Shown: one piece after another, positions 3 to 8,803 of the stretch
Layout: every line of letters begins with the position of its first letter
Numbering within the stretch: the stretch's first letter is position 1
Assembly (NCBI GenBank): GCA_002067405.1
Contig: MVRP01000179.1
Coordinates: 1 to 8,803 of the forward strand
Reading direction: 5' to 3'
From: Syntrophorhabdaceae bacterium PtaU1.Bin034
GTDB taxonomy: Bacteria; Desulfobacterota_G; Syntrophorhabdia; Syntrophorhabdales; WCHB1-27
DNA length: 8,803 bases
Position numbers and translations under genes: made by a program
The notes under the pieces: generated by a model
What the model saw: only the letters and a program-made list of their open reading frames with translations
Databases searched by the model: none
What the model was told of the DNA's origin: nothing

Positions 3-455
<453 letters not shown>

Positions 456-687: not shown

Positions 688-1491
688 CTATATTGCATAG
701 GCGAACGGCTTTTCGGCCTCGGCAAAGAATTCTGCATAAATCACTTTACGGATCTGGACAAAGTCATAGTCGCTGCGGTCGCGGGGCCTCGGCAATTCAA
801 CGGGAACGATTTTTTTTACCGTTCCCGGACGGCTCGACATGACCACGATCCGGTCGCCAAGAAAGACCGCTTCGTCGATATCGTGGGTGACCAGGATCAT
901 CGTGGTCCTCTCCGCTTCCCAGATACGCAGGATCTCCTGCTGCATCTGTATTTTGGTCAGCGCATCCAAAGCGCCGAAAGGCTCGTCCAGGAGCAGCACC
1001 TTTGGCCTGTTGACAATGGCTCTGGCAATTGCCACACGCTGTGCCATCCCTCCTGAGAGCTGGTGAGGATGGGCCCTGGCAAAGCCCGAAAGGCCCACAA
1101 GCTCCAGGTGCTCGTTGACGAGCCTCCTTTTCTCGCCAACATCTCTGCCATTGAGGCCAAAGGCCACGTTCTGCTCCACTGTCAACCAGGGTAGCAGTCG
1201 GTGCTCCTGAAAGATCATTCCCCGGTCGAGTCCGGGACCTGATATCCGGTGCCCGCCGAGATGAACCGTACCTTGGTACCCGTCCTCGAGCCCCGCAATG
1301 ATGCGCAAAAGCGTGCTTTTGCCGCATCCGCTGCTGCCGACGACGGCAAGAAATTCTCCCTGTCCGATGGTCAGGCTGATCTCTTGCAGGGCTGTCACGA
1401 CGGCATCCCGCACTTTGTATTCTTTGTGGAGCTTCTCGACAACGAGAGTGCCCCCGTTTGATTCCCCTGTAGTAATGCCAGCGTATTCCAT
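688..1491 (-). CDS. ABC transporter ATP-binding protein, NitT/TauT/SsuB type
   Basis: This 267-residue protein is the cytoplasmic ATPase that powers the importer encoded just upstream. All nucleotide-binding motifs are intact: Walker A GSSGCGKST at 52-60, Q-loop glutamine at 95, signature LSGGMAQ at 145-151, Walker B VLLLDEP at 165-171 with catalytic Glu170, the D-loop GALDALT, and the H-loop His203. The sequence around the Q-loop (IFQEHRLLPW) and the LSGGMAQRVAIARA signature are typical of the SsuB/TauB/NrtD subfamily. It is the last gene of the minus-strand operon, separated from the permease by an unusually long 89-bp gap. The ATG at 1491 is the only plausible start, since the frame is stopped at 1549-1551 upstream and has no GTG or TTG in between. 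The Shine-Dalgarno is weak, with the nearest GGAG about 16 nt upstream. The substrate is not deducible from this subunit. Confidence 0.93.
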   Translation of the reverse strand: MEYAGITTGESNGGTLVVEKLHKEYKVRDAVVTALQEISLTIGQGEFLAVVGSSGCGKSTLLRIIAGLEDGYQGTVHLGGHRISGPGLDRGMIFQEHRLLPWLTVEQNVAFGLNGRDVGEKRRLVNEHLELVGLSGFARAHPHQLSGGMAQRVAIARAIVNRPKVLLLDEPFGALDALTKIQMQQEILRIWEAERTTMILVTHDIDEAVFLGDRIVVMSSRPGTVKKIVPVELPRPRDRSDYDFVQIRKVIYAEFFAEAEKPFAYAI

Positions 1492-1502
1492 TTGCTGTTG
1501 TC

Positions 1503-1542
1503 GGGGCTCCCGCCGCCCCTGATCACGAGCTCCCGCAGCCCC
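1503..1542 (-). repeat. GC-rich inverted/direct repeat between permease and ATPase genes
   Basis: The 89-bp gap between the two transporter genes contains an inverted repeat (ggggct 1503-1508, agcccc 1537-1542) and an 8-bp direct repeat gctcccgc (1506-1513, 1529-1536). In the minus-strand transcript this could form a GC-rich hairpin ending about 11 nt before the ATPase start codon, with the only nearby GGAG inside the hairpin. No T-run follows, so it is not a standard intrinsic terminator. It could stabilise or process the message, or limit translation of the ATPase. Confidence 0.35.
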
Positions 1543-1580
1543 TTCTCCTCATTGTTTTTATAGTGACGCGTCCTTTCCCG

Positions 1581-2372
1581 TTAGCCCCCTGCAAAGGAGG
1601 TTTTCCAGGTAATCAATCGCGCCTCCAGCTGTTTGATCAGGCTGTCCATTATCTTGCCGATGACCCCGATGGAGATCATGCCCACGAGGACCACATCCGA
1701 TTGGGAGAGCTGCCTCGCATCCATGATCAGGTACCCTATGCCGCTGCTGGCGGCGATGAGTTCCGCTGCTACCACGCACATCCAGGCCACCATAAGGCCG
1801 ACCCGCAGGCCGGTCATAATCGCGGGAAAAGCTCCGGGTATCACCACCTGGCGAATGAGCTTGCTCCGGGGCACCTCAAGAATTCGTGCTACCTCGACGA
1901 ACTTGTGGTCCGTCTGTCGAATCCCGTCGATGGTGCTCACAATGATAGGAAAAAAGGCACCCAGGAAGATAATGTAGACCTTCGACTGCTCGCCGATGCC
2001 GAACCAGAGGATTGCCAGGGGTATCCAGGCGATAGGCGGGATCGGTTTGATCACCTGGATGATGAGGTCGGACAGCCTGTCCATGGTCCGGGAAAGACCT
2101 ATGACCGTACCGAGCCCGAGCCCGAGAAAGGCTGCGATGCCGAAGCCTTCGAGCACCCGCACGATACTGATCCCGATATGGCGCGCGAGATCGCCGCTCC
2201 TCGACATCTCCCAAAGAGTTCTGATCACCATCGATGGGGGCGGAAGCGTGATCGGCTTTATATACCCGAGGTAAAAAAGGAGCTGCCAGACTACCAGGAT
2301 GATGATCGGGAAGCTCACATATTGCAGCAATCGTTTCACCTTCTCGAGTTCCGGCCGTGCAGGATGAGGCAT
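1581..2372 (-). CDS. ABC transporter permease, SsuC/TauC type
   Basis: This 263-residue inner-membrane protein is of normal length for the binding-protein-dependent permease family. Hydrophobic segments lie at about 18-37, 68-92, 102-124, 131-150, 185-210 and 225-245, consistent with six membrane helices. The cytoplasmic EAA coupling loop that contacts the ATPase is visible at about 159-190 (VEVARILEVPRSKLI, followed by VVIPGAFPAIMTGLRVG), a good match to the family consensus. It would form a homodimeric channel with the ATPase and receive substrate from the binding protein encoded upstream. A strong AAGGAG ribosome binding site precedes the ATG at 2372, and the gap from the binding-protein gene is 34 bp. 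The sulfonate/taurine/nitrate grouping is from family resemblance; the actual substrate is open. Confidence 0.93.
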   Translation of the reverse strand: MPHPARPELEKVKRLLQYVSFPIIILVVWQLLFYLGYIKPITLPPPSMVIRTLWEMSRSGDLARHIGISIVRVLEGFGIAAFLGLGLGTVIGLSRTMDRLSDLIIQVIKPIPPIAWIPLAILWFGIGEQSKVYIIFLGAFFPIIVSTIDGIRQTDHKFVEVARILEVPRSKLIRQVVIPGAFPAIMTGLRVGLMVAWMCVVAAELIAASSGIGYLIMDARQLSQSDVVLVGMISIGVIGKIMDSLIKQLEARLITWKTSFAGG

Positions 2373-2406
2373 CTCATTCTCTCCTTATTTGTGTCCTCTC
2401 ATGTTG

Positions 2407-3384
2407 TTATTTGAGGCCGCTTTCCCTGCCGATGCCGGTGTCCACAAAATCGTTGATATTGACCGCGGTCTTTATGAGGCCTGTCGACTTCATAAAGGCT
2501 TCGCTTTTCTTCAGTTCCTCAATGTCGTCATTGCGGATCGCCGGGTTGTAATTGAACTTGGTGAACACCTTGAGCAGAAGATCCGACGGAAGGCTGACGT
2601 CTGTCGCGATGAGCTGAGCCGCATCCTTGGGGTTGGATTTGATGAAATCCGCGCCTCGCTGATACGCCCTGAGGACCGCCTTTGTCTGATCCCGGTGCTT
2701 TTGCAGAAAATCGTTGGAAACGACAAGAACGAGGACGCCTTTTTTTATCCCGGTGCCGTCGGCAAGCACCCGCGCTATTCCTTTGGTTTCCAGGCTTGTA
2801 ATCAGGGGTTCCCAGATAGCGGCGGCATCGATATTGCCGTTGGCTATGGCGGTGGCAATATCAGCCTGGGAAAGGTTGATGAGCTGAATGTCCCCGGTTG
2901 TCAGCCCGCCCTTCTGAAGTACAAGGACCAGGAGGTGGTGGGCATAGGAACCCTTGACGACCGCGACTTTTTTCCCTTTGAGCTCCTTGGGTGACTTGAT
3001 GGATGAGTTCGTCGGCACGACGACCGCGAGGGATTTGGGACCGTCCGAGGTCAGGGCCACAACGCGGGTATTGATGCCGGCACTCTTGGCGATGATGGCG
3101 GGGGTGTCACCCAGCAAGCCGAAGTCCTGCTGTCCGGCTGCGAACGATTCATTGATCGGAGGGCCTGCCGCGAATGAAGCCCATTTGACGGTAACGGCGG
3201 GAAAACCGGCTTTTTTTAACTCTTCTTCTATCCACTTCTTCTGTTTGGCCACGAATATGGGGCTGTAATGGGGGATGGGCTGCGTTGCAATCCTGATCTC
3301 ATCGGCCGCTACAAAGGCGGGAAGGGCCGTAGCGATAAGAATGCCGATAAACATTACAAGAAGTGCGTTGAGTAGCCTTTTCAT
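2407..3384 (-). CDS. Periplasmic substrate-binding protein of NitT/TauT/SsuA-type ABC importer
   Basis: This 325-residue secreted protein captures the substrate for the adjacent permease and ATPase. It begins with a Sec signal peptide: basic MKR, a hydrophobic core to about residue 25, and a likely cleavage after Ala27 (FVAA before DEIRIA). No lipobox cysteine is present, so it should be a soluble periplasmic protein. The mature chain has the type II binding-protein layout of the SsuA/TauA/NMT1 families: IATQPIPHYSPIFVAKQKKW, then AAGPPINESFAAGQQDFGLLGDTPAII at about 71-98, KGKKVAVVKGSYAHHLL, and the NGNIDAAAIWEP segment at about 182-193. The start is supported by GAGGAG 8 nt upstream of the ATG. 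These families bind alkanesulfonates, taurine, nitrate, thiamine precursors and other small ligands. Aliphatic organosulfur is favoured by context but not proven. Confidence 0.9.
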   Translation of the reverse strand: MKRLLNALLVMFIGILIATALPAFVAADEIRIATQPIPHYSPIFVAKQKKWIEEELKKAGFPAVTVKWASFAAGPPINESFAAGQQDFGLLGDTPAIIAKSAGINTRVVALTSDGPKSLAVVVPTNSSIKSPKELKGKKVAVVKGSYAHHLLVLVLQKGGLTTGDIQLINLSQADIATAIANGNIDAAAIWEPLITSLETKGIARVLADGTGIKKGVLVLVVSNDFLQKHRDQTKAVLRAYQRGADFIKSNPKDAAQLIATDVSLPSDLLLKVFTKFNYNPAIRNDDIEELKKSEAFMKSTGLIKTAVNINDFVDTGIGRESGLK

Positions 3385-3435: not shown

Positions 3436-3906
3436 TCATATCCTTTTTGCCAGCCGGTCAAGATGGATGAAGGTTGGATGGAGCGCTTCTTCCTCTCTTC
3501 TTCGCGCGGAATAGCGCTGGTCTGTTACTTTTTCCGGCTCTATAATCCAGATAGTGGCCAGGTCCACATCTCCCAGCCGCTCTCTGATGCTCACATAGTA
3601 TTTTTGGAATACCGGCCCCGTAATGAGTGCCCTGACGGGTTTCCCGATGATCTGGTAGCTCTCGCCTTCCTTTCCTTGAAGCGCCACAGCCACTTTTCGG
3701 TCAAACCAGATGCTCCGGACAAGATTCTTGTTCGTCTGGGACGATTCGAGCAGTTCGAGATAGACCAGATTTCCGTCTTCCCCCACATGCAGCGTCCCTT
3801 TGATGACCACGTGTGGAACACCGTCTTCACCCGTGGTGGCAAGCACCTTGAAGGTATCTTTATCCTGAAGCAGCTCTTTTACTTCATCGCTCAGTTGGAT
3901 TGCCAT
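3436..3906 (-). CDS. Pyridoxamine 5'-phosphate oxidase-like (PPOX) flavin-binding protein
   Basis: This small 156-residue protein resembles the FMN-binding split-barrel PPOX-like family. An N-terminal strand region (DTFKVLATTGEDGVPHVVIKGTL) is followed by LVYLELLESSQTNKNLVRSI, then DRKVAVALQ and a GKPVRALITGPVF strand, the usual order of the beta barrel and its flavin-phosphate contacts. I chose the ATG at 3906 because GGAGG sits directly before it. A longer frame back to 3993 would overlap the end of the radical SAM gene and encode an implausible, arginine-rich leader. It lies 28 bp after the radical SAM gene and 51 bp before the binding-protein gene. Members act as FMN oxidoreductases or as flavin, F420 or heme binders; here it may supply electrons or handle a product of the pathway, which is inference. 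Confidence 0.75.
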   Translation of the reverse strand: MAIQLSDEVKELLQDKDTFKVLATTGEDGVPHVVIKGTLHVGEDGNLVYLELLESSQTNKNLVRSIWFDRKVAVALQGKEGESYQIIGKPVRALITGPVFQKYYVSIRERLGDVDLATIWIIEPEKVTDQRYSARRREEEALHPTFIHLDRLAKRI

Positions 3907-3934
3907 TTTTCCTCCTTCTGCCTTTCGCCTTTCA

Positions 3935-5188
3935 TCACAGCAGGCGCGACAGATCCGTATCCGGATGGTTACCGCAGCGACGGTAATCGTCATAATCGAT
4001 GGGCAGGCTGTACTTCACCCTTATTTCATGGATGCCTTTGGCCAGACGGACGAAATAATCGAGCGAAGGGTTCTGCTGGTCGCGAAACAATGAGCCGGGT
4101 TTCGGCACCCACACGATGTAAACCGTATTGACCCCGTTGCGTGCCAGGAAATCAGCCTCTTCAAGAGTTGATTTCAGAGCGTCGTCCTCACTCACAAAAC
4201 CGTTCGGCTTGGCAAGCTCGACACCTCCGACTATTCCCGTGCTCACGTTGCCGCGACCGAAAATACCCACAGCCCTGAACAGCCGGTCCCGCCATTCCTT
4301 GTAGCCGATCCATTCGGTTTTTCCCGGGCATATCCATCCGAACAGATCCTCGTTCAGCACCTCCAGGTCAGCGGTGTAGCTGGTAAGGCCGGTGTTTTCA
4401 TAGAGGCGTGCCAGTTGCTTTTTCGTGAAGGCGGTGGCGATCAGCTGGCTGGGAAATTTCTTCACGGCAAAGTTCTCGCCGATGGCCTGCAGAAGCTCGA
4501 TATAAAAGTCGACCTCCTGGTCAAAAGGCAGGTGGCCGTTCGTATTGGAGCCGGAGGTCAGGCAGATCCCGGTAAACCGTCCCGGTTCCTTCAATGCCTC
4601 GGCAATGGTCTCCGAAACATCGCCGGGGGTAAGCCTGGCGGGTATGCCCAACTCAGCCCGCTGCTGCTTGAAATGGGTAACAATATCGCAATACCGGCAG
4701 CCCTTGTTATTTGCCCAGAAATAGCAGAAGCCCGATTGAAATACATTGAGCCGCTGAGGGCGGGCGCTGACGACAAAGCTCATGGGGATCCCGGAGGCCG
4801 TCTTCTTATCGTAGTAGGCAGGCTTGGGCCAATACTCCACTTCTTCCAGGATCTCACCGTCATCCGTTAAAACGACCCTCCCGTCTCTCGCATCAACTAT
4901 ATAAGGATGTTTTTCGAGGGGGGTAGGATCGACGATGATAGAGGTGCCGTCCCTGAGCAGAAGGGATTCGGGCACTGACGAGAGTTGGGCATCTCGCGAT
5001 CCGAAAATGTAAGGGCTTCTCATCTGGTGCACGGATTCGTCGACTTTAGCAAGAGCCGCTTCCGTATAGTGGACTCCGCGCCTTTGGACATCGGTTTTCA
5101 AAATAACGAGCGGGGGTACTTCGGGGTATTTTTCAATAACCTCATTCAACGATAATGTCTCAGTGTGCTTTTGGGCATGCACCTGCAT
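3935..5188 (-). CDS. Radical SAM protein with atypical C-X8-C-X2-C cluster motif
   Basis: This 417-residue protein has about 140 residues of N-terminal sequence I do not recognise, then a radical SAM-like core. The cluster-binding cysteines appear to be Cys155, Cys164 and Cys167 (FCYFWANNKGCRYCD), spaced C-X8-C-X2-C instead of the usual C-X3-C-X2-C. They are followed by an aromatic-free IVTHFKQ helix. The GICLTSGSNTNGH segment at 207-219 fits the strand-2 GGE-like SAM-binding motif, and later strand-like segments (SYTADLEVLN, NVSTGIVGGVELAK, NTVYIVWVPKPGS) complete a TIM-barrel pattern. Extra cysteines occur at 209, 287 and 405. GGAGGG 7 nt upstream supports the ATG at 5188. It follows the DUF2325 gene by 23 bp. 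It could mature the cofactor of the divergently encoded NifDK-like enzyme in place of NifB, or modify the imported substrate. No named radical SAM family was recognised. Confidence 0.82.
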   Translation of the reverse strand: MQVHAQKHTETLSLNEVIEKYPEVPPLVILKTDVQRRGVHYTEAALAKVDESVHQMRSPYIFGSRDAQLSSVPESLLLRDGTSIIVDPTPLEKHPYIVDARDGRVVLTDDGEILEEVEYWPKPAYYDKKTASGIPMSFVVSARPQRLNVFQSGFCYFWANNKGCRYCDIVTHFKQQRAELGIPARLTPGDVSETIAEALKEPGRFTGICLTSGSNTNGHLPFDQEVDFYIELLQAIGENFAVKKFPSQLIATAFTKKQLARLYENTGLTSYTADLEVLNEDLFGWICPGKTEWIGYKEWRDRLFRAVGIFGRGNVSTGIVGGVELAKPNGFVSEDDALKSTLEEADFLARNGVNTVYIVWVPKPGSLFRDQQNPSLDYFVRLAKGIHEIRVKYSLPIDYDDYRRCGNHPDTDLSRLL

Positions 5189-5211
5189 TTGGAACCCTCC
5201 TTACGACTTTT

Positions 5212-5526
5212 TCATCGCAGTGCAGAAAGGGACTTCTTAAGGGCGGAAACACTGCTTGGTTTCACGGTGACCAGCGGAATTCCGGACGAATGTGCCATCT
5301 TGCGGGCGCGCAGCGCCATGCTGTGGGAGACCGTTGCGGTAAAAAGGATGATAAAATCGGTTCCCTCGGCCGTTCCCTTAAGGCCGTTGTTGTTTTGATT
5401 GTATATCCTGGAATAGAAATTCCTTTCTTCAAGGACCCGTCGATACTGCGGCTCCAGCCCCGTAATTCCGCCGATCACCGCCACGGTTCTTTGAGCCGGA
5501 AAAGATTTGACTTCTGCTTGTCTCAT
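5212..5526 (-). CDS. DUF2325 domain protein
   Basis: This 104-residue protein matches the general pattern of DUF2325: an N-terminal strand-turn VAVIGGITGLEPQYRRVLEER at about 15-35, a central acidic-polar stretch ending in a hydrophobic strand (TDFIILFTATVSHS at 56-69), and a helix plus strand (ARKMAHSSGIPLVTVKPSSV). The pattern is that of a small Rossmann-like alpha/beta fold; no signal peptide or membrane segment is seen. I chose the ATG at 5526 because GGAGG lies 8 nt upstream. The frame could extend six codons to a TTG at 5544, but that would run through the ribosome binding site. It sits 46 bp after the cap-domain gene and 23 bp before the radical SAM gene. The biochemical function of the family is not known to me; VSHS and GG residues are the features to watch. 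Confidence 0.72.
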   Translation of the reverse strand: MRQAEVKSFPAQRTVAVIGGITGLEPQYRRVLEERNFYSRIYNQNNNGLKGTAEGTDFIILFTATVSHSMALRARKMAHSSGIPLVTVKPSSVSALKKSLSALR

Positions 5527-5572
5527 AATTGTTTCCTCCGTCAAATATCAACTTGTCTGCAGCCGGAAGTGT

Positions 5573-5872
5573 TTAAAGGTACGATACCGTCCGCATGACG
5601 GCCTTGCTGCGGATGTGCGGCCTAAACACTTCGAGCCCGGCCTTGAGCGCATCAACACACACGAGAAGTTCCGACAGGCAGTATTTTTGCGTACGATAGA
5701 GCTCATTTACACGGGCCATTCCGGCGGACAATCCCTTCTCTACGGCATAGTCAGCGGTTATGCCCTTCTCCAACGCCACCCTGGAAAGCTCGACACAACG
5801 GTTCGCGTCATACCGTACCACTGCTTGCTTAAGCCCTGAGATGATCTTTCCTGCTTCCTTTGCCCTGGCCAT
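5573..5872 (-). CDS. Stand-alone B12-binding_2-like (corrinoid methyltransferase cap) domain protein
   Basis: This 99-residue, mostly helical protein resembles the four-helix cap that precedes the cobalamin-binding Rossmann domain in corrinoid proteins such as MtaC and MetH. The matching positions are VELSRVALEKGITADYAVEKGLSAGMARVNELYRTQKYCLSELLVCVDALKAGLEVFRPHI at about 27-87. The typical corrinoid protein continues with a GTVxGDxHDIGKN segment, whose His ligates cobalt. Here the chain ends with KAVMRTVSYL followed by a stop, exactly where that domain should begin, and no remnant of it is seen in the 46 bp to the next gene. It is therefore probably a genuine cap-only protein or an old truncation. 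It is the first gene of the minus-strand operon, with GGAGG 8 nt before the ATG. It may bind a corrinoid or a hydrophobic partner, or act as a scaffold for the radical SAM protein. Confidence 0.72.
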   Translation of the reverse strand: MARAKEAGKIISGLKQAVVRYDANRCVELSRVALEKGITADYAVEKGLSAGMARVNELYRTQKYCLSELLVCVDALKAGLEVFRPHIRSKAVMRTVSYL

Positions 5873-5986
5873 GGAAAGCCTCCTTTGTTCTCTTCTCGAC
5901 TTGTCTGGCTGTCCTTCATTGATAATCGCTGCCTTGTCGTGCTCTTCTTAAATCACTATATAAATAATAGACTAACTTGTGTTTTA

Positions 5987-6015
5987 AGTATGGCAATCTT
6001 AACTATAGTTGTCAA
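5987..6015 (-). promoter_or_regulatory. Predicted sigma70-type promoter for the minus-strand operon
   Basis: Reading the minus strand, TTGACA (complement of 6010-6015) is followed by a 17-bp spacer and CATACT (complement of 5987-5992). The -35 is perfect and the -10 matches 4 of 6 consensus bases. Transcription would begin near 5980, giving a leader of about 108 nt before the cap-domain gene. A perfect palindrome AACTATAGTT (6001-6010) occupies the spacer and touches the -35 box, a likely place for regulator binding. Confidence 0.55.
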
Positions 6016-6020
6016 GAACA
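6010..6020 (-). promoter_or_regulatory. Site 1 of an 11-bp repeat (TGTTCTTGACA) at the minus-strand promoter
   Basis: The minus strand reads TGTTCTTGACA here, identical over 11 bases to 6292-6302 on the plus strand. It covers the -35 element of the minus-strand promoter and is itself an imperfect dyad, TGT-N5-ACA. An exact shared 11-mer over both divergent -35 boxes suggests a common activator or repressor site, or a shared extended -35 element. Confidence 0.5.
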
Positions 6021-6040
6021 AAATAAATAAAATTTAGTAA

Positions 6041-6068
6041 AATGATAATAAATGATAATTTAATTATC
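6041..6068. repeat. AT-rich tandem and inverted repeat, Fur-box-like hexamers
   Basis: Two tandem 10-bp units begin aatgataat at 6041 and 6051. The second runs into a perfect 7-1-7 inverted repeat gataatt-t-aattatc (6054-6068). The hexamers gataat, gataat and attatc are those of Fur boxes, but the spacing between them does not match the standard 19-bp Fur site. It could bind Fur or a related metalloregulator, or be only an AT-rich bend between the promoters. Confidence 0.3.
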
Positions 6069-6126
6069 GCATTATATAGTTCGGCTATTAGCAGAAAAGA
6101 TGCTCGAAACCTATGAAAATATGGCG

Positions 6127-6182
6127 ATAGTCAATAAGGCAGACACCCGGAGTGACTTCGTTGTTTGACTATTTCAGATAGT
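6127..6182. repeat. Overlapping dyads in the divergent control region
   Basis: An 8-bp inverted repeat atagtcaa (6127-6134)/ttgactat (6165-6172) encloses a 30-nt loop. The right arm also forms a shorter dyad actat-N5-atagt (6168-6182), so the two pairings exclude each other. The site lies upstream of the predicted plus-strand start, so DNA-level regulator binding is more likely than RNA attenuation, unless a further upstream promoter exists. Confidence 0.35.
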
Positions 6183-6250
6183 GGTCTTATTAATACAGGT
6201 CTGTGAATAATTACCGGCCCTCGGTCGGTCGTCCTCTTTTTCACTGCCTG

Positions 6251-6261
6251 TGTCCTGAACA
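6251..6261 (-). promoter_or_regulatory. Site 2, degenerate copy of the 11-bp regulatory repeat
   Basis: The minus strand reads TGTTCAGGACA, which agrees with TGTTCTTGACA at 9 of 11 positions. It sits 30 bp upstream of the plus-strand -35 copy. With the other two copies it suggests a dyad consensus TGTYC-N-GRACA. Confidence 0.35.
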
Positions 6262-6291
6262 AATATCAGTTATTTACTTGTATATAAAAAA

Positions 6292-6302
6292 TGTTCTTGA
6301 CA
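6292..6302 (+). promoter_or_regulatory. Site 3 of the 11-bp repeat (TGTTCTTGACA) at the plus-strand promoter
   Basis: This is an exact inverted copy of the site at 6010-6020, and it again overlaps the promoter -35 box. Both copies are preceded by an A/T-rich run that could act as an UP element. Confidence 0.5.
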
Positions 6303-6326
6303 TGTACAGTCAGCATTGCTTATAAA
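6297..6326 (+). promoter_or_regulatory. Predicted sigma70-type promoter for the yezD-nifK-like-nifD-like operon
   Basis: TTGACA (6297-6302) is separated by 18 bp from TATAAA (6321-6326), or by 17 bp if TTATAA is taken as the -10. Transcription should begin near 6333, about 84 nt before the first gene. The near-consensus -35 implies a strong promoter that would need repression under non-inducing conditions. The absence of a sigma54 element separates this from classical NifA-controlled nif operons. Confidence 0.65.
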
Positions 6327-6341
6327 TAGTATATCATGTTT

Positions 6342-6354
6342 ATAGTATTACTAT
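6342..6354. promoter_or_regulatory. Perfect 13-bp palindrome just downstream of the predicted transcription start
   Basis: The sequence atagta-t-tactat is a perfect 6-1-6 palindrome about 10 bp after the predicted start site, a position typical of repressor operators. Its ATAGT/ACTAT half-sites recur in this region at 6001-6010, 6127-6131 and 6168-6182, so one regulator might recognise several of them. Confidence 0.4.
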
Positions 6355-6393
6355 GGTTAAAATTGGACCTTCGAAAACAGAGTGGAGGTTGAA

Positions 6394-6414
6394 ATGCCTG
6401 CGGTGGAGAAGTAA
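6394..6414 (+). other. Seven-codon upstream frame (MPAVEK) with its own ribosome binding site
   Basis: GGAGG at 6384-6388 lies 5 nt before an ATG that encodes only six residues before TAA at 6412-6414. The frame runs across the GGAG (6405-6408) used by the next gene and ends 2 nt before that gene's ATG. It could couple or tune translation of the operon's first gene. It may also be a chance frame. Confidence 0.35.
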
Positions 6415-6416
6415 GG

Positions 6417-6593
6417 ATGGCCCAGGATGTCATGCATTTGAGCGAAGCCGAAAAACAGCTTCTGTTACAGGTCCTGAAAGCGGTGAGAAGCATCCGGTTC
6501 GGCTACATTAATATTATTGTGCAGGATTCCAAAGTCGTGCAGATAGAAAAAACGGAAAAAACCAGATTTGACAAAAAGGTCTCTTCAACATGA
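6417..6593 (+). CDS. yezD: YezD family (DUF2292) small protein
   Basis: This 58-residue protein has an N-terminal helix (SEAEKQLLLQVLKAVRSI, about 9-26) followed by the family's hallmark beta segment FGYINIIVQDSKVVQIEKTEKTRF at about 28-51. The GxxxIxIQDxKVVQIExTEK pattern is nearly complete. GGAG lies 8 nt before the ATG. The TGA stop overlaps the next start codon in an ATGA arrangement (6590-6593), so translation with the NifK-like gene is probably coupled. YezD-like proteins are generally found beside sulfur assimilation and organosulfur genes, though their biochemical role is not established to my knowledge. As the first gene of this operon it supports a sulfur-related role for the nitrogenase-like enzyme. 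The symbol is a family label, not proof of orthology. Confidence 0.85.
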   Translation: MAQDVMHLSEAEKQLLLQVLKAVRSIRFGYINIIVQDSKVVQIEKTEKTRFDKKVSST

Positions 6594-7933
6594 GCACCTT
6601 CATTGACCGTCCGAGATACTTGTGCGCCCTTGGGGGCGCAGTAGCCACCCTGACCAACCTGCCTCGGGTCATTCCCATTCTCCATGCAGCGGGCGGCTGC
6701 GGAGGAAACATCGCGAATGCCCTCAACAATGCGGGAGGATATGCGGGCACGGGTTACTGCGGCGGCCAAAGCCTGCCCAGTTCCAACATCTATGAAAGGG
6801 ACATAGTGTTCGGTGGAGAGGAGCGCCTTGACGAACAGATCGAGACCACGATGAAGATCATCGACGGCGGTCTCTATTTCGTCGTGACGGGCTGCATGGT
6901 AGAGATGATCGGAGACGACGTCTCCTCGGTGGTAAAAAGGTGCCGGAACGGACATGCGCCGGTCCTTTCAGCGGTCACCGGCGGTTTCCTCGGGACCTCG
7001 TCAAAGGGCTACGATATTGTCCTTGAAACCTTAATCAGGCACTACGTGACGAAAACCTCCCGCAGAGACCGGAAGACCGTCAACCTGTGGGGCATCATGC
7101 CTGTCCAGGACGTTTTTTGGAAGGGCAATCTCAACAGCCTGAAGCGTCTCATAGGAAAGCTCGGATACAAGGTAAATACCTTCTTCGGTGAAAGAGAAAC
7201 CCTTGATACCCTGAAAAACTCCGGCAAAGCGGCGTTGAACATCGTTGTCTCCGACATATACGGGATAGAGCCGGCCAGGGCCTTTGAAGAGGTCCACGGT
7301 GTTCCTTACCTGTCGGCGCCTTTGCCTATTGGTCCCCACGGCACGGATATCTTTTTGAGAACCCTGGCCGACGCCCTTCGCATCAAAGAAAGCGTTGTCG
7401 AGGCCGTAATCAAGGAAGAGAAATCCCGGTTTTACGACTATCTGGAGCGGGTAACCGATGTCTATAACGACCTCGATCTTCAGCGGTATGCGGTCGTCGT
7501 CGGCGATGCCAACTATACGCAGGCCCTTACCCGGTTTCTCGCCGACGATCTCGGATGGCTGCCGGAACTGGCAGTGGTCACCGACGATGATCTGCCCGAT
7601 GAACAACGGGAGGCGCTGTCGAAAAGGTTCGCCGGTTATGCCTCGGGCATTACCCCCGAACTGGTTTTCGATACCGATACCTCCGCAGTGGCAAAGCACC
7701 TGAGTAACCATTGGCCGAGAAACAAGGGTCAACGCTACTATGATTCTTTCAATCCGGCCTTTGTCATCGGGAGCGTCTTTGAGAGGGACCTGGCGGAGAG
7801 TCTCGACGCCGGGTTCTTGAGCGTCACCTATCCGGTGTCCAACCGGGTAGTCCTCGACAGGGCATACGCCGGGTATGCGGGGGCGCTGAGGCTGACCGAG
7901 GATATTTTCACCGTGCTCGTCGCGGGCAGATAA
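6590..7933 (+). CDS. NifK-like nitrogenase component 1 family protein (beta-type subunit)
   Basis: This 447-residue protein is a nitrogenase/oxidoreductase component 1 homologue. The N-terminal part is NifK/NifN-like: CALGGA with Cys12, HAAGGCGGN with Cys37, SLPSSNIYERDIVFGGEERL at 61-80, and VVTGCMVEMIGDD with Cys102. Cys12, Cys37 and Cys102 correspond to the three NifK P-cluster cysteines; the first spacing of 25 residues is identical to that in Azotobacter NifK (Cys70, Cys95). Further cysteines are Cys57 and Cys118. The protein lacks the long N-terminal extension of true NifK, which is about 520 residues. The start overlaps the yezD stop. It should form a heterotetramer with the NifD-like protein encoded 13 bp downstream. 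The K-before-D order is the reverse of nif operons. Similar proteins include NifN, methylthio-alkane reductase and uncharacterised nitrogenase-like groups. Confidence 0.88.
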   Translation: MSTFIDRPRYLCALGGAVATLTNLPRVIPILHAAGGCGGNIANALNNAGGYAGTGYCGGQSLPSSNIYERDIVFGGEERLDEQIETTMKIIDGGLYFVVTGCMVEMIGDDVSSVVKRCRNGHAPVLSAVTGGFLGTSSKGYDIVLETLIRHYVTKTSRRDRKTVNLWGIMPVQDVFWKGNLNSLKRLIGKLGYKVNTFFGERETLDTLKNSGKAALNIVVSDIYGIEPARAFEEVHGVPYLSAPLPIGPHGTDIFLRTLADALRIKESVVEAVIKEEKSRFYDYLERVTDVYNDLDLQRYAVVVGDANYTQALTRFLADDLGWLPELAVVTDDDLPDEQREALSKRFAGYASGITPELVFDTDTSAVAKHLSNHWPRNKGQRYYDSFNPAFVIGSVFERDLAESLDAGFLSVTYPVSNRVVLDRAYAGYAGALRLTEDIFTVLVAGR

Positions 7934-7946
7934 GAGAGGACTATCG

Positions 7947-8803
7947 ATGGATTATATTAAGGAGAAAACACCGCCGGTCCGGGAAGACAGGCTCGGCGCA
8001 TGCAGCGCCTTCGGCGGCTCCTGCTGCGAACTGGGCAGACAATCGGGTGAGGGCTGCCTGAATCAGGCGGCGAGGAGCTTCTCCCAGACCCAGGGATGCC
8101 AGTTGAGCCTGAGCCTCGCCATACTCAACACCATAAGGAACGCCGTGATCATCGTCCACGGCCCCATCGGGTGCGGAGCGAGCAACGCCGCGTTAACAGG
8201 TGTCACGAAAACATTTCAAAGGCTGAGGGACGGGAAGGCCGGGGGATTGATATGGCTCAACACCAACCTCAACGAAGCCGATGTCATCTCGGGTGGCGAG
8301 GCAAAGCTGAAAGATGCCGTATTGTTCGCAGAGAGCGAGTTCCGGCCTGAGGCACTTATCATCGTCAACAGTTGCGTGCCTGCCCTCATCGGGGATGACC
8401 TTGACGGCATTGTGGCCCGGTTGCAGGAGGAGGTGTCGGCAAAGATCGTCCCCATCCACTGCGAGGGCTTCAAGACGAAGATCATGGCGAGTGCGTACGA
8501 TGCGGTGTACCACGGTATCCTTAGAAACCTCATGGAAAAAGAGGAGGACCCCAGGACCGTCATACCCGACGACCTCGAGACCCTCAAGGAACAATACCGG
8601 ATCAACAGGACGGTCAATATCCTCAATGTTTCTTCCATGAGCCGGGCGGATGAAAAGGAGCTGACGAGGCTGGTGGAAGCCCTCGATCTTCATGTGCGCA
8701 TTCTGCCGTGCTTTGCCCGTCCCGACGATTTTGCGTCTGTCTCCGAGGCTGCCCTGAACGTGAGCATCTGCTCCACCCACGATGATTATTTTGCCGGCCA
8801 CAT
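7947..8803 (+). CDS. NifD-like nitrogenase component 1 family protein (alpha-type subunit), 3' truncated by window
   Basis: The frame opens at ATG 7947 after AGAGGA and continues for 285 complete codons to the window edge. The NifD-type core is clear: SFSQTQGCQ (Cys51), VHGPIGCGAS (Cys76), WLNTNLNEADVISGGEAKL and NSCVPALIGDD (Cys143). Their spacings of 25 and 67 residues nearly equal those of the P-cluster cysteines of Azotobacter NifD (62, 88, 154). The HCEGFKTKIMASAYDAVYHG segment at 171-190 aligns with NifD RCEGFRG, but Gln191 becomes Met180 and His195 becomes Tyr184. Arg96 becomes a non-basic residue. The segment ALNVSICSTHDDYFAGH places Cys275 where NifD has its cofactor-ligating cysteine. 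A cysteine-rich N-terminus (Cys19, Cys26, Cys27, Cys37) precedes the core. The protein looks able to hold an active-site metal cluster but not to act as a standard nitrogenase. The cofactor histidine region lies beyond the edge. Confidence 0.88.
   Translation, partial: MDYIKEKTPPVREDRLGACSAFGGSCCELGRQSGEGCLNQAARSFSQTQGCQLSLSLAILNTIRNAVIIVHGPIGCGASNAALTGVTKTFQRLRDGKAGGLIWLNTNLNEADVISGGEAKLKDAVLFAESEFRPEALIIVNSCVPALIGDDLDGIVARLQEEVSAKIVPIHCEGFKTKIMASAYDAVYHGILRNLMEKEEDPRTVIPDDLETLKEQYRINRTVNILNVSSMSRADEKELTRLVEALDLHVRILPCFARPDDFASVSEAALNVSICSTHDDYFAGH

Follow-up and report, generated by a model that had tools for sequence, protein, structure and literature searches.

The window analysed here, an 8,803-nucleotide stretch of contig MVRP01000179.1 from Syntrophorhabdaceae bacterium PtaU1.Bin034, carries two divergent groups of genes, identified by Pfam and NCBIfam scans of its open reading frames (ORFs). 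One group encodes a pair of nitrogenase-like subunits, K and D; the other encodes a radical SAM (rSAM) protein, a PPOX-fold protein and an SsuABC-type transporter. Both groups are conserved modules; they adjoin each other here and, in looser arrangements, in a few other genomes. Their side-by-side position suggests anaerobic uptake of sulfur from organic compounds.

The plus-strand genes, running from position 6417 to the window end, encode a YezD-family small protein (DUF2292, PF10055; 6417–6593, E 7.7e-16), K (6590–7933; Oxidored_nitro, E 1.1e-71) and D (7947–8801; Oxidored_nitro, E 1.8e-41). YezD and K overlap by four bases, and K and D are separated by 13 bases; D is open at the window end (8803) and stops after 285 codons, with the C-terminal ligand position lying beyond. 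The minus strand carries seven genes in the order cap (5872–5573), DUF2325 (5526–5212), rSAM (5188–3935), PPOX (3906–3436), SsuA (3384–2407), SsuC (2372–1581) and SsuB (1491–688). Every gene named in a first-pass annotation of this DNA was recovered in the scans, PPOX mainly through its predicted fold; that annotation had placed the transporter within 3436–8803, and although its genes are indeed present they lie at 688–3384.

The K-D family

The PDB structures nearest to the window proteins are those of the methylthio-alkane reductase (MAR) subunits MarK (for K, E 1.5e-85) and MarD (for D, E 2.6e-33). Of 7998 proteins scored as possible homologues, 1021 matched at E<=1e-20 (120 were listed), and 80 loci (L001–L080, the K-D loci) were kept from 250 relatives in a genome scan. 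From these and further loci, 346 candidate proteins of 350–1000 aa, 280 of them distinct, made up the tree set. In a 284-tip FastTree, window K falls within an 83-tip clade (support 99) and window D within an 80-tip clade (support 100), and both stand beside a 33-tip MAR superclade, with support for the sister relation of 91 for K and only 50 for D. Trees with a better model were built from 65 K and 65 D rows, chosen for diversity from 141 K-side and 143 D-side rows; here the K-D family (24 rows) forms one clade with 100% support in the Shimodaira–Hasegawa-like approximate likelihood-ratio test (SH-aLRT), for K and D alike, and true MAR (5 rows) forms a separate clade, also with 100% SH-aLRT, nested among MAR-like rows, these values coming from a quick search with no bootstrap and with several long-branched outgroup rows. 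NifD, NifK, NifE, AnfD and AnfK references typed by NCBIfam were all included in the 284-tip tree and in part in the better-model trees. D and K form a distinct family, in line with the first-pass reading: in the 284-tip tree both lie outside the NifDK, AnfDK and NifE clades, and in both tree sets they lie outside the MAR clade.

Identity to MAR is about 38% for K and about 34% for the family D proteins; the K-D enzyme is probably a remote relative of the MARs, which cut C-S bonds. Carriers of the family include Clostridia, Negativicutes, Paenibacillus, termite-gut Treponema and relatives of Geobacter. Some genomes contain numerous matches to PF00148 (24 in Sporomusa sp. KB1 [G007], 24 in G375 [C1] and 28 in G008), and many of the nitrogenase-like genes of Sporomusa sp. 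KB1 are in one region (C1:2888309-2972575) together with Ssu-type permeases. Candidatus Formimonas warabiya encodes a 737-aa fusion of a NifH/CfbC-type protein with D (L120:8340-10550); fused nifH-nifE-like genes have been mentioned before (PMC3464626).

Cluster ligands

PMC12552129 gives the P-cluster cysteines of MAR as MarK 32, 56 and 121 and MarD 66, 91 and 158, and the ligands of its Fe8S9C cluster as Cys270 and His429, with Arg428 a proposed hallmark. All six P-cluster cysteines are present in the window proteins, where C12, C37 and C102 of K align with those of MarK, and C51, C76 and C143 of D are of the P-cluster type; C275 of D is of the Fe8S9C type and occupies the Cys270 position. 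Across the family, the three P-cluster cysteines are kept in 83/83 K rows, and the three in D, together with Cys270, in 80/80 D rows; the loop-I His429 is kept in 77/80, the remainder being window D (which ends earlier), one gap and one X.

This pattern sets window D apart from the isethionate reductase subunit IsrD, which is reported to have one of the three P-cluster cysteines and no Cys275 (PMC11423573); since window D has all four, it is not IsrD. Two D-K pairs with a single-Cys pattern occur elsewhere (L128:8767-11561 and L136:8925-11635); K-D and MAR are present in the same genomes, and by this pattern these pairs would be Isr.

Genes associated with K and D

The neighbourhoods of the 80 K-D loci were compared by clustering 1390 mechanically called ORFs and then labelling the clusters. 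Many contigs are short and the ORF picking was crude (K itself was labelled in 74/80 and D in 69/80), such that all counts are lower bounds. The commonest neighbours are CysK (56), ssuB (51), ssuC (44), a short NifB (41) and NifH (40); rarer ones are a NifX-type protein (22), a corrinoid protein (12), MetY (10), YezD (8) and a RACo-type activator (8). The count for the label 'ssuA' (43) was set aside, as it mixes in a cluster of URO-D methyltransferases, one member of which was identified. The labelled gene most often found immediately before K is CysK (20 times), followed by NifB (14), with an unlabelled ORF in that position 19 times, and in two loci (L063 and L072) the order is YezD-NifB-NifX-NifH-CysK-K-D-SsuC-SsuB-SsuA. 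CysK scores above the equivalog cut-off of TIGR01139 in 4/4 K-D loci tested and in L155. Examples of the short NifB and of NifH were checked, as were corrinoid, URO-D methyltransferase, RACo and NifX-type proteins; the short NifB scores below the nifB cut-off because its C-terminal part is lacking.

Proximity was also evaluated in 11 genomes, where the position of every match to CysK or to an SsuC-type permease was compared with those of 95 group-IV-type matches. These 95 are what is left of 105 matches under 300 bits once 10 that lie no more than 5.5 kb from a match of at least 300 bits are removed; five weak matches under 130 bits were also left out. Within 10 kb of the group-IV-type genes lie 15/34 CysK copies (0.6 expected) and 38/111 SsuC-type permeases (2.1 expected), although the corresponding p-values overstate the certainty for K-D, as copies cluster, the carrier genomes were chosen, and the 95 comprise K-D, MAR and other types. 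The organosulfur setting anticipated at first pass is supported: CysK, Ssu-type transporters and YezD near K-D point to cysteine and organosulfur assimilation. YezD/DUF2292 is associated with sulfur metabolism, in line with the neighbourhoods seen here; a literature search on it returned mostly unrelated papers. A scan of K-D loci (n=10) for SAM riboswitches found none at the gathering score.

The rSAM-PPOX-SsuABC module

The rSAM protein scores above the cut-off of NF045502 (205.5 bits, cut-off 125), a family of 'variant' radical SAM proteins whose model carries no function. The usual radical SAM motif is C-x3-C-x2-C; that of the window protein is wider, and alignment of 33 sequences shows C155-x8-C164-x2-C167 to be invariant along with C287 and C405-G-N-H408. 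A structural model (predicted local distance difference test score, pLDDT, 87.6) contains a radical SAM barrel, and the protein thus has both the Cys triad for a 4Fe-4S cluster and the predicted fold of a radical SAM enzyme. The PPOX match by Pfam is weak (E 2.6e-4, below cut-off), and the assignment is based mainly on a model (pLDDT 83.5) in which a flavin-type split barrel is predicted, with matches to HupZ, PhdC and FMN-binding protein. PDB sequence searches with rSAM and with PPOX gave no match. The PPOX ORF of 185 aa overlaps the rSAM gene, and its start was moved to the likely ATG at 3906 behind the Shine-Dalgarno-like sequence AGGAGG.

The transporter is of the SsuA-family importer type. 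SsuA scores 222 bits with TIGR01728 (SsuA_fam, cut-off 163.5), its nearest solved structure is a periplasmic aliphatic sulphonates-binding protein (2x26, E 3.2e-33), and it is accompanied by a permease (best model PRK11365 SsuC, under cut-off; 52-74% identical to the five closest rSAM loci) and an ATPase (ABC_tran, E 6.4e-35; 62-78% to the same five). The SAO organometal system was considered and rejected, as the window transporter proteins match the SaoA, SaoP and SaoX models only below their cut-offs.

Homologues of rSAM number 1310 at E<=1e-20 (120 were listed). Few of the genomes scanned have one: at this threshold they are present in 9/398 genomes of the phylum of a Moorella locus (G003), four of them at 1e-80; a Geotalea locus (G407) is in one of 3/297 genomes of its phylum with a match at 1e-80. 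Among 13 chosen K-D genomes, four have an rSAM match at 1e-20, one of them merely 31% identical. By itself, PPOX gave weak matches (30-33%) in 2/31 genomes.

Ten loci, from nine genomes, in which rSAM identity is 45% or higher (L153, L154, L155, L156, L163, L164, L165, L166, L170 and L171), show that rSAM-PPOX-SsuABC is a conserved module in its own right, of which the cap and DUF2325 genes are not part. Ssu genes are present in 10/10 and PPOX in 9/10 (at 60% coverage), that of L164 being a fragment. Window SsuB, SsuC and SsuA are up to 78%, 74% and 70% identical to those of other rSAM loci, and at best 64%, 51% and 35% identical to those of K-D loci. MetK is near the module in 5/10 (L153, L154, L155, L163 and L171), and CysK and MetY are both found in the same three (L153, L155 and L164). 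The proposed use of SAM in quantity by rSAM would account for MetK beside the module. This conserved PPOX-SsuABC-MetK setting is new information on the NF045502 proteins; a single targeted literature search, with a broader one besides, brought up no description of rSAM-PPOX-Ssu.

Some other features of these loci can be recorded here. SAM riboswitches at L153:2924-3019 and L164:3471-3658 precede MetA/MetY genes and not rSAM. Between SsuA and SsuC in L155 (L155:4260-7485) are genes, named by eye, for a 2-hydroxyacyl-CoA dehydratase subunit-like protein and a BadF-type activator. A further locus (L167:6625-14299) has SsuA-SsuB-SsuC, a distant (28%) rSAM, NifH, a D-like and a MarK-like gene in one row.

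A possible role in sulfur scavenging

We consider it reasonably probable that the window is a junction of two anaerobic sulfur-scavenging modules, with K-D as a C-S-cutting nitrogenase-like enzyme. YezD-K-D would form the catalytic part of an ATP-driven enzyme, and with NifH and a short MarB-like NifB, both seen in relatives, K-D would contain a P-cluster together with a cluster of the [Fe8S9C] type, its target being a C-S bond in an organosulfur compound. The sulfide released would be caught by CysK, which often adjoins K-D (or a thiol by MetY). The Ssu-type importer would bring in a sulfonate-like anion, to be processed by the radical SAM protein and its flavin-fold partner. The metal clusters, C-S cleavage, substrate, order of steps and co-regulation are what we infer; the gene identities, family, ligand conservation, neighbourhoods and predicted rSAM and PPOX folds are direct results.

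Several observations weigh against this reading. The window has no NifH, NifB or CysK gene and its D is incomplete. The predicted pocket differs from that of MAR. The Trp195 position is M in 50, Q in 20 and W in only 5 of 80 family D rows, the Phe199 position is Tyr in 80/80, His194 is not kept in most rows, and Arg428 is missing in all 80 (the position is a gap in the multiple alignment and Gly in two pairwise alignments of one family member); window D has I, M and Y at MAR positions 194, 195 and 199. All five true MAR rows show the MAR pattern, and W195, F199, R428 and H429 are kept in 26/28 MAR-like rows. With such a different pocket the K-D substrate may be something else. Neither rSAM nor PPOX is present in any of the 80 K-D loci, so joint action of the two modules is not general. 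Of the three rSAM loci (3/10) in which nitrogenase-like genes accompany the module, only L171 has D and K (NifH-D-K, then rSAM-PPOX-SsuC-SsuB), and these fall outside the K-D family, D being about 26-28% and K about 31-33% identical to the family and to MAR. The other two have NifB or NifH without D and K: L165 has rSAM-PPOX-SsuACB, then a partial NifB match, YezD and NifH, and L164 has NifB-CysK-SsuC-SsuB-PPOX fragment-rSAM, with CysK in two frames. Finally, members of what is possibly the same family (group IV-A/Nfa) have been proposed to fix N2 (PMC9147875).

A survey of the seven minus-strand genes gives a divided answer to the first-pass suggestion that they are an accessory set for K-D. 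The rSAM, PPOX and SsuABC genes are kept together, but as a group they are not kept beside K-D, from whose 80 loci DUF2325 is absent along with rSAM and PPOX, and neither cap nor DUF2325 accompanies the module; the idea of a seven-gene accessory set is not sustained.

Alternative explanations

The two modules could be neighbours by chance, each serving sulfur nutrition alone and on different compounds, and this we regard as somewhat unlikely. Their separation in the K-D loci favours it, as do the 9/13 chosen K-D genomes without an rSAM relative at E<=1e-20, a genome (G200) in which rSAM is present three times and K has no homologue at that threshold, and the 6/10 rSAM loci in whose fetched contig parts no nitrogenase-like gene was found; the ten rSAM-locus stretches analysed contain no D or K gene of the K-D family. 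Against chance, K (E<1e-80) is present in 15 and rSAM in 4 of 398 genomes of one phylum, with both in 3 (Fisher 1.7e-4, kinship uncorrected), and for the K-D family alone the numbers are 13, 4 and 2 (p 0.006, resting on a 40% identity cut picked after the list was seen). The nitrogenase-like genes beside the module in L164, L165 and L171 also argue against it, as does a contig of G155 that has a K-D family pair, with K at 14.8 kb, as well as rSAM at 36.1 kb; MetA, MetK, CysK, NifH and NifB are between or near them. L164, L165 and L171, together with L167 and its more distant rSAM, could also be taken to mean that the nitrogenase-like enzyme depends on rSAM and PPOX for maturation or repair, much as Isr requires IsrB, an rSAM protein with the radical SAM motif as its only resemblance to NifB (PMC11423573). 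We find such a maturation role quite improbable, however, as 41/80 K-D loci have a NifB-like rSAM of their own and none has the window type, Ssu genes accompany rSAM in all ten of its loci, and G200 has the module without K.

Two further explanations concern K-D itself. It could be a MAR-like salvage enzyme making methanethiol from thioethers for methionine, with corrinoid methyltransferases as a side branch, and the MetY, corrinoid and RACo-type genes at 10, 12 and 8 of the 80 loci are consistent with this, as is the mlp-cluster preprint (PMC10418091), in which corrinoid methyltransferases, CysK and MetY are associated with group IV-A genes. CysK, in 56/80 loci, is far commoner than MetY, and four genomes (G001, G004, G007 and G008) also encode true MAR, 66-79% identical to that of R. 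rubrum, so that K-D is not needed there for the methanethiol job; overall we judge this unlikely. That K-D is a group IV-A nitrogenase fixing N2 seems to us very improbable. N2 fixation has been proposed for Nfa of Endomicrobium proavitum and for NflDK1 of Heliophilum, which have nflB, nflH and nflX nearby (PMC9147875, PMC8399215), and a NifX-type protein is present at 22/80 K-D loci. K-D is nonetheless linked to CysK, Ssu transporters and YezD, its predicted cluster-binding His is in loop I of MAR, and 6/8 carrier genomes also hold matches of conventional kind (at least 300 bits, with types checked for some).

Returning to sulfur scavenging by both modules, a more specific form of the proposal can be put forward as a tentative possibility. 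In this form, rSAM-PPOX-SsuABC would be a hitherto undescribed system for anaerobic desulfurisation of organosulfur compounds, in which rSAM and its flavin-fold partner free sulfur from a sulfonate-like import, and K-D would be a second, reductive C-S cutter that acts on a new substrate and feeds CysK, the two being combined in a single pathway in some bacteria.

Relationship to known systems

MAR (MarBHDK; 9d9u, 9fmg) resembles the K-D system in fold family, subunits, P-cluster cysteines and, across the family, Cys270/His429-type ligands, in having NifH and a short NifB-like protein, which many relatives encode near K-D, and in its sulfur-assimilation setting. It differs in clade, in the pocket residues, in that K precedes D in most K-D loci, and in that CysK and Ssu-type transporters are the usual neighbours of K-D. 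The likeness to isethionate reductase (IsrBHDK with SsuCAB, R. capsulatus) is one of gene kinds, namely a nitrogenase-like enzyme, an rSAM protein and an Ssu-type sulfonate importer, and that to the 'MarHDK-like' genes (group IV-A) found in type I mlp clusters is one of published gene neighbours, namely corrinoid methyltransferases, CysK and MetY, which some K-D loci also have.

A sulfur role for such nitrogenase-like genes is already in print and is not new. MAR and IsrBHDK with SsuCAB are nitrogenase-like enzymes of sulfur assimilation (PMC12552129, PMC11423573), the latter serving isethionate together with rSAM and SsuCAB (PMC11423573); genes for cysteine synthase or O-acetylhomoserine sulfhydrylase are found close to nitrogenase-like genes of the Cys275 type, and ABC transporter genes close to others (PMC3464626); a preprint links group IV-A genes to gene clusters for corrinoid methyltransferases that include CysK and MetY (PMC10418091); and nifK-nifD occur with cysteine synthase in one termite spirochete (PMC13067680). 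A search of the open-licence literature found no pocket comparison with the MAR structure, no counted CysK/Ssu linkage, and no rSAM-PPOX-SsuABC with nitrogenase-like genes.

If the proposal is correct, the large K-D family, in which MAR-type ligands go with a different pocket and, often, a partner cysteine synthase, would add another type of C-S-cutting enzyme; to our knowledge, few nitrogenase-like enzymes have a known reaction. The family would also bear on whether the 'group IV-A nitrogenases' serve N2 fixation or sulfur gathering, and the rSAM-PPOX-Ssu module would provide testable genes for O2-free acquisition of organic sulfur by anaerobes.

Other features of the window

The cap gene (5573–5872, minus strand) encodes a corrinoid-protein cap domain (B12-binding_2, E 2.2e-13) and stops within the linker that would lead to the B12-binding domain; with no such domain after the cap, it is not a corrinoid protein of the MtbC/MtgC type. 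Full-length relatives, 37-41% identical, include corrinoid proteins near K-D genes (G155 and G116), and the window gene is probably a truncated copy of the corrinoid protein found near K-D elsewhere. It was considered as a conserved subunit and rejected, since no protein of matching size turned up other than itself (12 candidates scored, with low sensitivity). The DUF2325 protein (5212–5526, minus strand; E 2.1e-19) is encoded in an ORF opening with TTG at 5544 and has a likely start at ATG 5526, behind a Shine-Dalgarno-like sequence. It was likewise rejected as a partner, with matches in 4/12 genomes at 28-31% identity and none near rSAM. At E<=1e-5 and 60% coverage, cap and DUF2325 have no match in the ten rSAM loci, and DUF2325 has none in the 80 K-D loci.

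An Rfam search of the window found no SAM riboswitch or other known RNA before the operons or in the divergent intergenic region between cap and YezD (5873–6416), and the sole match up to E 1 is a chance-level snoRNA match inside a gene. Promoter-like sites in the divergent region are not above chance (2 seen, 2.2 expected). Beside the operon end lies the 3′ part of an IS110-family transposase gene (3–455, plus strand; Pfam/NCBIfam), the 5′ end of which is outside the window.

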